Assembly: GCA_937899625.1 (NCBI GenBank) | Contig: CALCCB010000007.1 | Coordinates: forward strand, 1 to 64,000 | Length of the DNA: 64,000 nt | Direction of reading: 5' to 3' | DNA from: an uncultured Bacteroidota bacterium | GTDB lineage: Bacteria > Bacteroidota > Bacteroidia > Flavobacteriales_D > Crocinitomicaceae | In this document: positions 11,301 through 52,918 of the stretch, in pieces | Layout: each line of letters opens with the position of its first letter | How positions within the stretch are numbered: the first letter of the stretch is position 1 | The notes under the pieces: generated by a model | The model's input: the letters and a program-made list of their open reading frames with translations, nothing else | Told to the model about the DNA's origin: nothing | The model's database searches: none | Program-made: the position numbers and the translations under genes

Positions 11301-11941
11301 CAGAAAAATAATGCCGAGAAGAGAAAAAAACTGGTGATGAGACTTTCGATATGGGTAGGTAGAATTTCTTCATCGGGTTCTACTGAGAAAAGGAATTCAT
11401 TTTCTGCATTAGAGATAGGGTAGCCATTAGCCGTTTTTTCTGGAACAATATGAGCCTTGAAATCTTCATTAAACGGAGAGGAAAAAGAATTTTGAAGCTG
11501 GTCATTTTCAATAGGAAATTCATTTTTGATCAGAAATGAACTACTCAGAATATATCCGTCTTTTTTTACGTACTTAGTGTAGTACCAACCATTTTGTAGT
11601 CGAACTACCCCATCCGAAGGAAAATGGGCATCAGCAAATTGGGAAATAGGAACCTGGTTAGTGTTCCAGTAGATCAAGGAATCATTTCTGTAATAATGGA
11701 TGGCTATACCGTCATAAGAGCTAAGGTTTTTCCAACTTCCAAAGTCTGTGTTCCGATCAAGTTCCTTTGAATTGATCTGTAGAGAACGGTCTAGCTTTTT
11801 TTCTAACTCAAGAAATGTAGTCTGAAATATTTTGGCCGAATTACGTAGATCTGGATGAAGAACAGAATACCGGTATGCTACAAAAGTGAAACTGCTCAGT
11901 AAGGCAAGTAGCAATAATCGGTATTTCTTGATCCTGTTCAT
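8321..11941 (-). CDS. Very large NtrY-like sensor histidine kinase
   Basis: 1206 residues. A first membrane helix (about 8-26) is followed by an extracytoplasmic region to about 200, a cluster of roughly eight helices (205-470), a long soluble loop, two more helices (about 700-760), a second sensor loop, a final helix (about 895-920), a HAMP-like segment and the kinase core. The H-box is KQVAHEIKNPLTPMKLSVQQ with the phosphorylated His at residue 1000; the N-box NLIKNGLQA and the G-boxes DNGTGIPE and GTGTGLGL are intact. The HEIKNPLTPMKLS form is typical of NtrY-like kinases. No response regulator gene is adjacent. Its ATG overlaps the uridine kinase stop by 4 bases, so it is the last gene of a three-gene reverse operon. 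The signal sensed is unknown. Confidence 0.93.
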   Translation of the reverse strand: MNRIKKYRLLLLALLSSFTFVAYRYSVLHPDLRNSAKIFQTTFLELEKKLDRSLQINSKELDRNTDFGSWKNLSSYDGIAIHYYRNDSLIYWNTNQVPISQFADAHFPSDGVVRLQNGWYYTKYVKKDGYILSSSFLIKNEFPIENDQLQNSFSSPFNEDFKAHIVPEKTANGYPISNAENEFLFSVEPDEEILPTHIESLITSFFLFSALFFWLGLLRILIKRNKPVFGWGFILGIPIVQILLIKVQFLSFMDPFEISDVSLYASNEYYPNFTYFLWNLILLSFVLFNAGDLISRSSKRQQFVTGYFVIPVFLILWYLLALQIEDLILNSSIPLQVDQLFTLNSYSFMAIFSIGLTYYSMHHLLSSSIKAICQQSARISMFTTYTFIIGVLYFIFDISFGQEVLFVALFPLITTLVIIYQHFKNDKNSVLAYGILILILFCGSQASVFTNINNKKEKGERELYANQLATEKDIVTEIEFTNIENRIEKDQFILRFLQSPKNMEIDDFEDAMERRFFHGHWERYDIDLNLFDSVGVSVIMDENQNFSISEMDHVIADHCSESEFNPSVFYVNDNINQYSYVIRKKIFVSGRFNGTLIAAMRSKKIPEEIGFPRLLISSKANVLEPLENYSIGKYYQGKLNNKYGAFAFPSDVKELKKWRTTNGYYDTDDYSHYILYQSSVNTIVLSTPLITWVENLTSFSYLFCFFGLLLLPVLFDKNNGYSFYSGKLGIAMRVQLILIGLVFITLLGFGFGSGIFIKDQYFEYTNGVIRERMSSVYTEIKGKIGSKKELDLAKDGSYLNFLLKKFSKVFVTDINIYNHQGVLLASSRPKLYNYGLLSEQINPEAYFALKERSKSEFIHQENIGNLKYSSAYQPFLNNENSMLGYLNLQHFGQQKGFEDQIQRFLVSIINVFVLLLAISVVLSIFVSNWVTAPLRLIQESFAGVRFDKTNQQIDYQRDDEIGALVKAYNSKLEELELAAQELAKSERESAWREMAKQVAHEIKNPLTPMKLSVQQLMRVYDPENPDSYKKLEKVSQSLIEQIDALTKIANEFSNFAKMPVPHESEVNLKAVLENVMEMFSNEENISITLACEEEHPMIRADKDQMIRVFNNLIKNGLQAVDEDQSAEINLKVKRSGSRINIEISDNGTGIPEDLKSKIFVPYFTTKGTGTGLGLAMVKQIIEIHHGSITYESSEKGTTFFIDLPAL

Positions 11942-12561
11942 GAAGTTATATTGACCATTTCGAGACGATTGTCGATCTCAAGGGTCAATTTAGTAAAATC
12001 CTTTTCAGCATGGTTATCATTTCTGAATCTGAAATCTGCAAGACTCTGATACGGCAGCAAATAATTGTGGTAACAAGGCATCACATGGTGCTCCCATTGA
12101 TAGAGAATTTCCTCTTTGCTGTAGCCTCGGTTCTCCTGATCCCTTTTTATCCTTCGGTCAAGTTGTTCTTCCGGACTAACAGAAATAAAGATCGAATAGT
12201 CGAGAATGCATCTTACCTTTTCGTAATGAAAAAGAAACAGTCCTTCCACAATAATTAATTTGGATGGTTTGATGATGATCGTAGTATCCAGGTCAGGAGG
12301 TGCGTTGAAATGGTATTCTTTAACCATAATTTCTTCTCCTTGAAGTAGACGATATAGATCATCCACAAGTCGTCTTTCTTCCAAAGCGGTAGGTAAGTCA
12401 AAATTAACTTTTCCGTTTTTGTCAATTGCCTGTTCTTCAATGGGTTTGTAATAATTGTCCATTGAAAACACAGAAGGATTTAAGTAAGCATAATATTCAG
12501 AAAGCTTGTCAAGCAAGGTTGTTTTACCTGAACCACTTCCTCCGCAAATACCAACGATCAT
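11938..12561 (-). CDS. udk: Uridine kinase
   Basis: 207 residues, the normal length for bacterial uridine kinase, which phosphorylates uridine and cytidine with NTP in pyrimidine salvage. The Walker A motif GICGGSGSGKTTL starts at residue 4. SMDNYYKP and NFDLPTALEERRL are the substrate-binding segments of the family, and RRIKRDQENRGYSKEEI matches the lid region (RRxxRDxxxRG). The gene overlaps its neighbours on both sides by 4 bases (ATGA type), so translation with the upstream secreted-protein gene and the downstream kinase gene is probably coupled. The functional link to these neighbours is not obvious. Confidence 0.92.
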   Translation of the reverse strand: MIVGICGGSGSGKTTLLDKLSEYYAYLNPSVFSMDNYYKPIEEQAIDKNGKVNFDLPTALEERRLVDDLYRLLQGEEIMVKEYHFNAPPDLDTTIIIKPSKLIIVEGLFLFHYEKVRCILDYSIFISVSPEEQLDRRIKRDQENRGYSKEEILYQWEHHVMPCYHNYLLPYQSLADFRFRNDNHAEKDFTKLTLEIDNRLEMVNITS

Positions 12562-31695: not shown

Positions 31696-34600
31696 ATGAG
31701 ATCTATTATTGTTCTAGTCACTTTGATCCCTTTTTATTTCCTTGGCCAATACAGGCCAACGAACGGAGTAACTGACTCAAAAGCAGGATTTATTGCACTT
31801 AAAAATGCGGAAGTTGTTGTTAGCCCGGATAAAACAATAAAAAATGCGACTATCCTCATACAGGGTGAAAGCATTGTAGATGTTGGTATACTTGTAAATA
31901 TTCCAGCGGGGACGAAGGAGATCGACTGTTCTGATCTAGTTATTTTGCCAGGATTTATCGAATTAAACAGCGATTTGGGGCTTCCAAAGCCGTCATCCAA
32001 TGGAGGTTACAATTTTAGACCTCAGTTGGAGTCGAATAAAAAAGGAGCTTACTACTGGAATGAGTCAGTCCATCCGGAAGTAAATGCTTCTGATAGCTAT
32101 GATATCGACACAAAAAGTGTCGAGGAGCTTATTAAATTCGGAATCACTTTTACCTTAACTCATCATCAGGATGGTATTTTTAGGGGTACAGGCGCCTTGG
32201 TTTCATTGGGTGTTGAGGACGTGAACCGACAAATGATCAAACCAAAAGCGGCACTGGTCATTTCTTTTCAAAAAGGATCTTCTAAGCAAACGTATCCTTC
32301 CTCTCAGATGGGAAGCATTGCTTTGATCCGTCAGTTTTTATATGATGTGAAATGGTATTCAGATGGCAATTCAAAAGAAACCGATCTTTCAATTGAAGCT
32401 TATCTTGCTCAGGATTCTCTACCGATCTTATTCGAGACAAAGGACAAATGGGAAATCCTGAGAGCAGAAAAAATTGCGAAAGAATTTGGCTTGTCGTTCA
32501 ATTACTATGGTTCAGGGAATGAATACATGGCGCATGATCAATTGAATCCGGTAAATGGGTTTGTGATCCTTCCTTTGAATTTTCCTGAAGCCTACGAAGT
32601 AAGGGATCCATATGTAGCAAGACAGATTCCTCTATCTGACCTTAAGCATTGGGAAATGGCACCTTCTAACCCTCATGTGATGAAGACCGAAGGTGTAGAC
32701 TTTTGTTTTACAAGTAGTGGGTTGAAGACCAGTGATCAGTTCTGGAAAAATATGAACATGACGATGCAGCGAGGCCTCTCAAAGCAAGATGTGTTGGCTG
32801 CATTAACGGTTAATCCGGCAAAATTACTCGGAGTCGAAAAGAAGTTAGGTACACTTGAAAAAGGGAAGCTGGCAAGCTTCAGTATTTATTCTGCCGATCC
32901 TTTTGCAGGAGGGAAGCTTCTTGAGGTCTGGACAATAGGTGAACAAAAAGTGCTAAGCAGGGCTCCTGAGCAAGATATTCTTGGGAAATATACAATTAAC
33001 GTAGACGGAAAAAGGTACCCTCTTGAAATTGCTGGTTCAAAAGAAAAGCCGGACTCAAAAGTGTCTGTGATCAAGGATGTAAAAGATGATAAGACAGGGC
33101 TGACTAAAAAGGATACTTTACAAGTGAAAGCGTTTACTCAACTGATCGGGAATGACCTTACCCTTCAGTTTAATGTCGATGATGAAAACTTCAAGGGAAG
33201 TATGAGCCTTCATGGGAAGGTGAACATGAGAGTGGGAGTGCTTTTCGGTGATGCTTCTCTTCCGGATGGGAGATGGGTTCAGTGGTCGGCAGTTAAGAGC
33301 GATAAGGTCAAAGAAAACAAGCAAGAACCGAAAAATCCCGAAATCGACACTTTGATCTGTCAACGGATATGGTTCCCGCACATGGCGTATGGATTTGACA
33401 CCAAACCGACTTCAGAAACGATCGTAATTCGAAATGCTCAGTTGTGGACCAATGAGGAACAGGGTGTGATCAAGGACGGAACTGTCATTGTTCAGGACGG
33501 GAAAATAACATTTGTTGGACAAGGTGGCTTTACCATTCCAACAGGAGCACGAGTAATTGATGCAAAAGGCAAACATGTAACACCAGGTATCATTGATGAA
33601 CATTCTCACATCGCCATTTCGAAAGGGGTGAATGAAGGAGGACAATCAATTTCCGCAGAGGTTAGTATTGGAGATGTTATTAACCCGGATGACATCAATA
33701 TTTACCGTCAACTTTCTGGAGGTGTTACAGCGGCACAATTGCTACATGGTTCTGCAAATCCGGTAGGTGGGCAAAGTGGCCTAATCAAATTGAAGTGGGG
33801 CGCTACTCCTGAGGAAATGCTGATCGACAATGCTCCAAAATTCATCAAGTTTGCGCTCGGTGAAAATGTGAAACAAGCGAATTGGGGTGATTTTAATACA
33901 GTTCGTTTTCCTCAGACAAGAATGGGGGTAGAGCAAGTGTACTATGATGGTTTTCACAGAGCACAGGAATATATGGCGGCATGGGAACAATTCAAGTCTG
34001 ACGAAAAAGGCAAAGTGAAGCAACCACGCAAAGATCTTGAACTTGAGGTGTTGGCGGAGATCCTTCGATCAGAACGTTTTATCAGTTGTCACTCATATGT
34101 ACAATCGGAGATCAATATGTTGATGAAAGTTGCTGATTCAATGGGATTCAAAGTGAATACGTTCACTCATATCCTTGAAGGATACAAAGTGGCAGATAAA
34201 ATGCTGGCGCATGGAGTTGGGGCTTCTACTTTCTCGGACTGGTGGGCGTATAAGTATGAGGTGAATGATGCAATTCCATACAACGCTTCTTTGATGAATG
34301 AAATGGGATTAGTGGTTGCCATTAATTCTGATGATGCTGAAATGGGAAGGAGATTGAATCAGGAAGCCGCAAAAGGAATCAAATATGGAGGGATGACTGA
34401 AGTAGAAGCTTTGAAAATGGTAACATTAAATCCTGCGAAGCTTCTTCACCTCGATGATCGTATGGGAAGTTTGAAAGTCGGAAAGGATGCAGATCTAGTT
34501 ATTTGGTCTGACAATCCACTAAGTATTCAAGCAAAGGCAGAGATGACGATTATCGATGGAACGGTAATGTTCGACGTTGAGAAAGATAAGGAACTTCAGA

Positions 34601-34755
34601 TGGTCAATCGACAAGAAAAGGCAAGGATTATCAATAAAATGCTTGAGTCAAATGATAAGGGAGAACCTTCGAAACCTTTCCTGAAGAAAAAAGCAAAGCA
34701 TTTTCATTGTGATACAATGGGAGAAGAAGGATCAGAAGGAGAAAACCAACATTAA
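31696..34755 (+). CDS. Secreted tandem amidohydrolase-fold protein
   Basis: 1019 residues with signal peptide (MRSIIVLVTLIPFYFLGQ). Two amidohydrolase-like halves. The N-terminal half (about 30-430) keeps the fold (FIALKNAEVVVSPDKTIKNA; LGTLEKGKLASFSIYSADPF) but where HxH is expected it reads GFIELNSDL, so it probably lacks the metal site. The C-terminal half (about 555-985) has GIIDEHSHIAIS (His636, His638), SCHSYVQSEI, FTHILEG and AINSDDAEMGRR, a plausible complete metal site. Members hydrolyse amide or ester bonds, often in imidazolones, hydantoins or dipeptides; the substrate is unknown. The broken amidohydrolase gene follows after 6 bases. Confidence 0.87.
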   Translation: MRSIIVLVTLIPFYFLGQYRPTNGVTDSKAGFIALKNAEVVVSPDKTIKNATILIQGESIVDVGILVNIPAGTKEIDCSDLVILPGFIELNSDLGLPKPSSNGGYNFRPQLESNKKGAYYWNESVHPEVNASDSYDIDTKSVEELIKFGITFTLTHHQDGIFRGTGALVSLGVEDVNRQMIKPKAALVISFQKGSSKQTYPSSQMGSIALIRQFLYDVKWYSDGNSKETDLSIEAYLAQDSLPILFETKDKWEILRAEKIAKEFGLSFNYYGSGNEYMAHDQLNPVNGFVILPLNFPEAYEVRDPYVARQIPLSDLKHWEMAPSNPHVMKTEGVDFCFTSSGLKTSDQFWKNMNMTMQRGLSKQDVLAALTVNPAKLLGVEKKLGTLEKGKLASFSIYSADPFAGGKLLEVWTIGEQKVLSRAPEQDILGKYTINVDGKRYPLEIAGSKEKPDSKVSVIKDVKDDKTGLTKKDTLQVKAFTQLIGNDLTLQFNVDDENFKGSMSLHGKVNMRVGVLFGDASLPDGRWVQWSAVKSDKVKENKQEPKNPEIDTLICQRIWFPHMAYGFDTKPTSETIVIRNAQLWTNEEQGVIKDGTVIVQDGKITFVGQGGFTIPTGARVIDAKGKHVTPGIIDEHSHIAISKGVNEGGQSISAEVSIGDVINPDDINIYRQLSGGVTAAQLLHGSANPVGGQSGLIKLKWGATPEEMLIDNAPKFIKFALGENVKQANWGDFNTVRFPQTRMGVEQVYYDGFHRAQEYMAAWEQFKSDEKGKVKQPRKDLELEVLAEILRSERFISCHSYVQSEINMLMKVADSMGFKVNTFTHILEGYKVADKMLAHGVGASTFSDWWAYKYEVNDAIPYNASLMNEMGLVVAINSDDAEMGRRLNQEAAKGIKYGGMTEVEALKMVTLNPAKLLHLDDRMGSLKVGKDADLVIWSDNPLSIQAKAEMTIIDGTVMFDVEKDKELQMVNRQEKARIINKMLESNDKGEPSKPFLKKKAKHFHCDTMGEEGSEGENQH

Positions 34756-34761
34756 GAAATT

Positions 34762-36051
34762 ATGAAATTGAGATTTGGAATAGTTTGTTTTTCGCTGCTT
34801 GCAACCTTTTTTGCGCAGGCTCAGGATCAAAAGAGCATCTTACTGATCAACGGATTCCTCCACAAAGGAAATGGCGAAATTCTGGAAACAGCATTAATTG
34901 GTGTTAGATCTGGAAGGATCGAAATGGTTAGAAATTCACTGGCGACTTCATACAAAAGAGAAGAGTGGGATACCATAATTGATCTTCAGGGTAAACACAT
35001 TTATCCTGGATTTATCGCACCCAATTCTACACTTGGTTTGACAGAAATTGATGCAGTCAGAGCGACAAGAGATTTTGATGAGGTTGGGATATATAATCCG
35101 CATGTCCGCTCTCAGATTGCTTTCAACGTCGAATCGAAAGTGATTTCTACAGTTAGGACTAATGGTGTGTTGATTTGTTAGGCTACTCCAAGAGGAGGAA
35201 GTATCAGCGGTACATCTGCTGTTATGTTAATGGATGGTTGGAACTGGGAGGACGCAACAGTCAGTTCTGATGATGGGATCCATGTGAACTGGCCCTCGAG
35301 TGCGGAAGGTGGAGGTTGGTGGGCTGAGCCATCACCTAAAAAGAGGAATGAAAAATACGAAGATCAAAAAGCGGAATTGATCAATTTCTTTTCAGATGCA
35401 AAAGCATACTGTGATGGAGGTAAAAAAGTGGATTTGGATCTTAGATTCAATGCAATGAGGGATTGTTTCAAAGGGGAAAAGAGAGTCTACTTTCATGCGA
35501 ACGACGTACAACAGCTCCTGGATGTGATCGATTTCGTAAGAAAATTTGAATTGCCTTTTCCGGTAATCGTGGGTGGATACGATAGTCACTTGATCGCTGA
35601 TCGATTGAAAGAAGATAAAATACCGGTTATGATCGGAAGGGTGCACAGTCTTCCTGAATATGAAGAGGATCCAATTGATCAGCCATTTTCACTTGCTGCT
35701 CAACTTCACGCTGCCGGAGTAAAGTTCTGTATTCAAAATTCAGGTGATATGGAAGCAATGAATGCGAGGAACTTACCATTTCAGGCAGGCACATGTATTG
35801 CATATGGATTGCCTGCTGAAGAAGCAGTTAAATCACTTACATTGAATACTGCAGAGATCATAGGGATCAATAAAGATTACGGAAGCATTGAAGAAGGAAA
35901 ATCAGCAACACTTTTTGTTTCTGATGGAGACGCTTTGGATATGCGCTCAAACAATGTTTCACTCGCAATGATCAATGGCAAGTTCATGTCGCTAGACAAC
36001 AGCCAAAAACAATTGTACAAGAAGTACCACAATAAATACCAGAAAAAATAA
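34762..36051 (+). pseudogene. Secreted amidohydrolase-like gene interrupted by one in-frame TAG
   Basis: From the ATG at 34762 the frame runs 139 codons to a TAG at 35179-35181, then stays open in the same frame for 290 codons to the TAA at 36049. Read through, it gives a 429-residue amidohydrolase-like protein with signal peptide (MKLRFGIVCFSLLATFFAQA). Before the TAG the protein reads STVRTNGVLIC, and after it ATPRGGSISGTSAVMLMDGW, a continuous stretch of the family. A CAG (Gln) to TAG change would explain it. The usual HxH is replaced (YPGFIAPNSTLG), so even the full protein probably has no metal site, like the N-terminal half of its neighbour. It could be a recent nonsense mutation, a sequencing error, or amber readthrough. 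An internal ATG at 35224 could allow a separate second part. Confidence 0.8.
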
Positions 36052-50473: not shown

Positions 50474-52918
50474 ATGGAAAAGAATTTGATCTTTTTACCT
50501 ATTGGATTATCAATCGTTGGATTGATCTTCATGTTAGTTAAAATGGCTTGGGTTAAAAAACAAAACCCTGGAAATGAGAAGATGCAGAGTATCTCAAAGA
50601 GTATCAAGGAAGGTGCAATGGCATTCCTTGCTGCTGAATACCGATTACTCGCAATTTTCGTTGTAATTGCTTCTGCGGCATTATTTGGAATATCAACGAT
50701 TGTTGAGACGACAAGTTGGATGATCGTTCCTGCATTTGTTGTAGGTGCTGTTTTCTCTGCGGTAGCAGGTAACATTGGTATGAGAATCGCTACTGACGCC
50801 AATTCAAGAACAACAGAAGCTGCTCGTACGAGTTTACCACAGGCTTTGAAAGTTTCGTTTGGTGGTGGAACGGTTATGGGATTAGGTGTTGCAGGTCTTG
50901 CAGTTCTTGGTCTGAGCTTGTTCTTCATGGCTTTTGTAAGCTCATTTATGACAGAGGATGGAAATTTCTACAACGAAATGACCATGGTACTTGAGGCATT
51001 GGCAGGTTTCTCTTTAGGAGCCGAATCGATTGCATTGTTTGCTCGTGTTGGTGGAGGTATTTATACGAAAGCTGCTGACGTAGGTGCTGACCTTGTTGGA
51101 AAAGTTGAAGCTGGAATTCCAGAAGATGATCCACGTAATCCTGCAACGATTGCAGATAACGTAGGTGATAACGTAGGTGATGTTGCCGGAATGGGTGCCG
51201 ATCTATTCGGTTCTTATGTTGCAACGGTACTTGCATCAATGGTGTTAGGAAACTACATCATCAAAGACATGGCGGATGCTTCAGAAGGTGGAGTTTTCGA
51301 AGATGCATTTGGAGGAATGGGGCCTATCCTACTTCCGATCATGATCGCTGGTGTTGGGATCATCGCTTCGATCATTGGAACTTTCCTAGTTCGTATTTCT
51401 AACAATGAAGCGAAAGAGGCTGAAGTTCAAAGAGCATTGAACATTGGTAACATCACATCTATTCTTCTTTCTGCGGTTGCGGGATGGTTCCTTGTAAGTT
51501 GGATGCTTCCTGAAACAATCACAATGAAGTTCTTTGGAGAAGGAGTAAAAGAGATCCCTAGCCGTCACGTTTTCTATGCAACTCTTGTTGGTTTGGGTGT
51601 TGGATACTTGATCTCGGCATTTACTGAATATTATACTGCACTTGGTAAGAAGCCGGTTCTTGATATCGTAAAGAATTCATCTACGGGAGCAGCGACGAAC
51701 ATTATTGCTGGTCTAGCGACAGGTATGATCTCAACATTCTCTTCTGTGATCCTTTTCGCAGTTGCGATCTGGGGTTCATATGAATTAGCTGGATTCTATG
51801 GTGTAGCTATCGCTGCATCAGCTATGATGGCAACTACTGCAATGCAGTTGGCGATCGATGCATTCGGTCCAATTGCTGATAACGCAGGTGGTGTTGCTGA
51901 AATGTCTGAGTTGCCAAAAGAAGTTCGTCAACGTACTGACGTCTTGGATTCCGTTGGTAACACAACTGCTGCAGTAGGTAAAGGATTTGCGATTGCTTCT
52001 GCTGCGCTTACTGCGCTTGCTCTTTTCGCAGCGTATGTAACATTTACAGGTATTGATGGGATCAACATCTTCAAAGCAGATGTATTGGCTGCATTATTCA
52101 TCGGAGGTATGATTCCGGTTGTTTTCTCTGCATTGGCCATGAAGTCTGTAGGTAAAGCAGCGATGGACATGGTAATGGAAGTTCGTCGTCAGTTCCGCGA
52201 AATCCCTGGAATCATGGAAGGGACAGGAACTCCAGAATACGGAAAATGTGTTGAGATCTCTACTAAGGCTGCACTTCGTGAAATGATGTTGCCAGGTGCG
52301 ATCACAATTATTTCTCCGATCATTATTGGTTTTGCCATGGGTGCTGAAGCACTTGGTGCTTACATGGCAGGTGTTGCTGTTTCTGGAGTCCTTTGGGCGA
52401 TCTTCCAGAACAACGCTGGTGGTGCATGGGATAACGCTAAGAAATCTTTTGAAGCGGGTGTAATGATCAACGGTGAAATGACTTTCAAAGGTTCTGATGC
52501 TCATAAGGCAGCGGTTACTGGAGATACAGTAGGAGATCCATTTAAAGATACTTCTGGTCCTTCTATGAATATCTTGATCAAGTTGACTTGTCTTGTAGGA
52601 TTGGTAATTGCTCCGATCTTAGGTGATGGACATGGATCAGACAATGGAGCTGCAAATGCTTGTGGAATGGAGCAGTGTGATGGGAAGATGGAATGTCACA
52701 AAGACATGAAGGGATGTGAAGGCCATGATATGGAGGCTTGCGGTCCTCATATGGAAGGAAAACACATGATCGGCAAGTGTGACATGAGAGAATGCGCTAA
52801 AATGTCTAAGGATGAATGTGCAGCAATGTGTGATTCTTTAAAATGCACTCCTGAAGAGAAGGAAATGTGTTTGTCTCACTATGACGAAAATGGAAAATTC
52901 AAGGGTGGCCATCATTGA
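50474..52918 (+). CDS. hppA: Membrane ion-pumping pyrophosphatase with Cys/Met/His-rich tail
   Basis: 814 residues. About 16 membrane helices couple PPi hydrolysis to H+ or Na+ transport. Signature: [20 protein letters not shown], then [19 protein letters not shown] and a late [25 protein letters not shown], with Ala and Gly at the positions that are Lys and Thr in the K+-independent class, marks a K+-dependent enzyme; the pumped ion is undecided. Odd: the enzyme normally ends soon after the last helix (about residue 718), but here a soluble tail from residue 720 to 814 holds 11 Cys, 10 Met and 8 His (for example [20 protein letters not shown]), looking like a metal-binding module. After the TGA at 52916 the same frame stays open and Cys-rich. 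Own promoter and possible operator upstream. Confidence 0.95.

Follow-up and report, generated by a model that had tools for sequence, protein, structure and literature searches.

Stop codons within bacterial reading frames, among them cases of CAG/TAG alternation under purifying selection, have been described by Belinky et al. (2021, PMC7918605), who required a stop to be present in two or more species in order to exclude errors. The stop considered here resembles those cases in the CAG-to-TAG change and in the purifying selection acting on the gene, but it is known from one genome, whereas the stops in that study were common to at least two species. The second group of described cases to which it can be compared are recent amber pseudogene alleles in bacteria. 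It shares with them a lone in-frame stop in a conserved gene, its absence from sister genomes and selection that has not relaxed; nothing distinctive sets it apart, except that the present case comes from a single consensus of a metagenome-assembled genome (MAG). The window, i.e. the whole stretch of DNA analysed, comprises 64,000 nucleotides of a contig from an uncultured Crocinitomicaceae bacterium. The stop is best explained, with high probability, as a recent amber nonsense allele or strain variant that truncates an exported amidohydrolase-like protein.

The interrupted frame

The features of the locus are as follows.

31696-34755, forward strand: intact upstream partner, a tandem amidohydrolase of 1019 aa (open reading frame, relatives, Pfam)
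34762-35178, forward strand: 5' part of the amidohydrolase-like gene, 139 codons, with a signal-peptide-like N-terminus and the N-terminal domain (aligns with the N-terminal third of intact orthologues)
35179-35181, forward strand: premature TAG (amber) at codon 140, where the homologues carry Gln (53/62), Glu (8/62) or Val (1/62) (sequence and homologue alignment)
35182-36051, forward strand: conserved rest of the frame, 289 codons and TAA, whose C-terminal part matches Amidohydro_1; probably translated poorly or not at all (open reading frame, relatives, Pfam)

The first-pass annotation had reported a single TAG at codon 140 of the gene starting at 34762, with the frame open on either side and 275 codons following the next ATG, and all of this holds. 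Translation of 34762-36051 gives 139 residues, the TAG at 35179-35181, and a further 289 residues up to the TAA at 36049-36051, so that the frame is otherwise open over 429 codons; the next ATG, at 35224, opens 275 codons. In the list of open reading frames the gene accordingly appears as two fragments, 34762-35181 and 35224-36051. The upstream gene stops 6 bases short of the interrupted one, and the same neighbourhood is found in relatives.

Since both halves are open and the second has an ATG of its own at 35224, they might be read as two separately conserved genes abutting at 35179. Full-length relatives, however, run through as one continuous reading frame of approximately 420-520 codons to which both halves align, and the conserved PRGG and SGTS motifs are encoded in 35182-35223, between the TAG and the next ATG. 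This alignment argues for one interrupted gene rather than for chance or for two genes, and the two-gene reading is left with next to no probability. Internal re-initiation was also considered and rejected: the AGGAGGA at 35193-35199 is separated from the next ATG by 24 bases, more than the spacing usual for a ribosome-binding site. The same heptamer encodes the conserved RGG residues.

Relatives and the age of the stop

When the downstream part was searched against 60 related genomes, 55 gave matches, some of them through paralogues only. The two closest sequences, from MAGs G014 and G012 (97 and 96 % amino-acid identity, respectively), both have an uninterrupted frame of 431 codons. At the interrupted gene their DNA aligns to the window without gaps at approximately 94 % identity, and both carry CAG in place of TAG, the codon that had been predicted for sister strains. 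Among 62 full-length homologues the codon at this site is CAA in 35, CAG in 18, GAG in 6, GAA in 2 and GTG in one, and none of the 62 has a stop there. An in-frame stop thus lies within a frame that is intact in the orthologues, as in a nonsense pseudogene.

The gene was found in 169 of 200 sampled genomes of the family and in 131 of the 146 high-quality ones. Its loss is tolerated, since it was not found in the remaining 15 of these 146. A search for a plasmid copy of the interrupted gene found none.

One orthologue carries an independent internal stop, a TGA near codon 30 of an otherwise intact frame (locus L123, G207:C713:4984-6458), in a draft assembly of about 800 contigs. It is the sole other true internal stop among the approximately 150 matches listed, in a tally that leaves out G077, G135, G145 and G193 (two partial matches each), and it indicates that singleton internal stops do occur in draft MAGs. 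Recurrent internal stops in G044, G166 and G181 were rejected, as the flagged TGA or TAA codons sit at the very end of the frame.

Comparison with the two sisters assigned 4 nonsynonymous and 21 synonymous private changes to the window lineage over the whole gene (1 and 9 before the TAG, 3 and 12 after it). For the upstream gene, which is intact, the counts are 7 and 33, respectively (Fisher p = 1), and a ratio near 2.7 would be expected under neutral drift, as computed. Selection on the interrupted gene therefore shows no relaxation. With the nonsynonymous changes at their 95 % upper limit, the branch can have been unconstrained over no more than about 9 % of its length, an approximate figure because the polarisation of the changes rests on three sequences. 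The stop is therefore no older than roughly the final 9 % of the branch, unless it is a consensus base error. A very recent stop would be expected to leave no relaxation; relaxation is awaited only in older pseudogenes and is not strictly defining.

The alternative of an error in the MAG consensus or assembly, whereby the organism would carry a sense codon and its gene would be intact, fits the single-base difference, the lack of any further lesion in the frame and the unrelaxed constraint, and the assembly is a draft MAG of 171 contigs. Against it, stops account for only about 3.8 % of the weighted single-base changes possible in this frame, so random consensus errors would rarely yield such a pattern. 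Moreover, natural changes are usually transitions, as this one is, and at error rates typical of short-read consensus sequences well under 0.1 such events would be expected per window. A base error is therefore considered unlikely, and the base is presumably real in the cell.

The first-pass annotation had left three options, a very recent change, an error or readthrough. The unrelaxed constraint suits the first two, and the third finds no positive support. Strong constraint until very recently is nevertheless also what readthrough would produce, and to that extent it counts against the nonsense allele.

Release factors, tRNAs and recoding

A functional stop, with programmed or suppressor-mediated UAG readthrough supplying the full protein at a low level, would account for the purifying selection kept on both flanks, and the CAG/TAG alternations with dN/dS below 1 cited at the outset provide a precedent. 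The translation apparatus speaks against it. Two class-I release factors are encoded in the genome, one with a PET motif and the other with SPY. We assign PET to RF1, the factor for UAA and UAG, and regard SPY as a variant of the SPF motif of RF2. The RF1 gene is neither lost nor altered, being a 378-codon frame with both the PET and GGQ motifs, and TAG is an ordinary terminator here, ending 4 of the 47 genes of the window.

Among the tRNAs recovered with the Rfam RF00005 covariance model over the whole genome and ARAGORN on the loci, a set that also lacks those for Gln, His, Trp and Ile, none has a CUA anticodon. Searches with two patterns spanning CUA anticodon to T-loop hit nothing but chance matches or the D-loop of tRNA-Glu. 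A control pattern for tRNA-Gln likewise found no tRNA, which means either that the method has yet to prove itself on this genome or that the assembly lacks the tRNA-Gln gene. The failure of the tRNA family search to recover the Gln, His, Trp and Ile genes in G000 probably reflects assembly gaps or the limits of a first-look filter. An incomplete set of this kind leaves some room for a suppressor.

A TGA inside hppA had been put forward as a second in-frame stop of the window, but it does not exist: the frame 50474-52918 is open for 814 codons and has only its terminal stop, at 52916. The support that a second stop would have lent to recoding falls away with it. The 125 C-terminal residues of hppA were matched free of stops in 37 of the 40 genomes searched, its own included.

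The hppA-like membrane pyrophosphatase encoded at 50474-52918 has a Cys/His/Met-rich C-terminal tail of about 90 residues. Genomes of the same genus have matches to most of its last 125 residues, those outside the genus only to the first 30-50 of these, and the tail thus looks restricted to the genus or its neighbours.

Genome-wide, ABC-ATPase domain matches over the cut-off contained no internal stop. One TGA-containing match (C7:12469-12579) was dismissed because it lies below the cut-off and extends upstream past the start of the open reading frame 11938-12561. Neither a stop conserved in relatives nor recurrent TAG in conserved frames was seen among the 62 homologues, the ABC-ATPase domains and hppA. 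Genome-wide recoding was rejected, given the presence of RF1 and the stop-free ABC-ATPase domains over the cut-off; the single in-frame stop is no sign of an altered genetic code, and recoding is not supported.

With no relative examined having a stop at codon 140, a functional stop is very unlikely. That the amber codon is usefully read through, for instance by a suppressor tRNA in an unassembled part of the genome, leaving the gene functional at a reduced dosage, is scarcely probable.

Fate of the protein and significance

The part after the stop matches PF01979 (Amidohydro_1) with 39 bits against a curated cut-off of 25, and its C-terminal part also matches the amidohydrolase PDB 3ooq by sequence. 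While this match places the protein with the amidohydrolase superfamily, the HxH metal-binding motif usually found behind the first strand of the barrel is absent: there is no conserved His, and positions 86-90 read A-P-N-S/T-T in most of 63 sequences. Since A-P-N-S/T replaces HxH in most homologues, the protein may not belong to the standard metal-dependent amidohydrolases. The upstream partner carries an HSH motif in its C-terminal half, and one could guess that the interrupted gene encodes a non-catalytic partner of that enzyme (31696-34755).

Under the preferred explanation, a nonsense allele, the second of the two genes in the amidohydrolase unit would have lost a conserved Gln codon to an amber stop through one recent C-to-T substitution, either fixed in the population or retained in the MAG consensus as one strain variant. 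Translation would most likely be terminated by RF1 after 139 residues, leaving an exported N-terminal fragment that keeps the signal peptide and has lost most of the barrel and the C-terminal domain. As judged from the sequence, this fragment is presumably inactive and the downstream part not efficiently re-initiated. Because no well-placed start follows just past the TAG, and any downstream product would lack the signal peptide, the gene would be a freshly formed loss-of-function allele.

If readthrough were true after all, the case would represent a tolerated amber codon in Bacteroidota. As it stands, the stop exemplifies the singleton nonsense alleles that form a low background in draft metagenome-assembled genomes, and it cautions against taking one in-frame stop as recoding. 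It is confirmed but ordinary: a broken (or mis-called) allele of a conserved enzyme-like gene in an uncultured Crocinitomicaceae bacterium.
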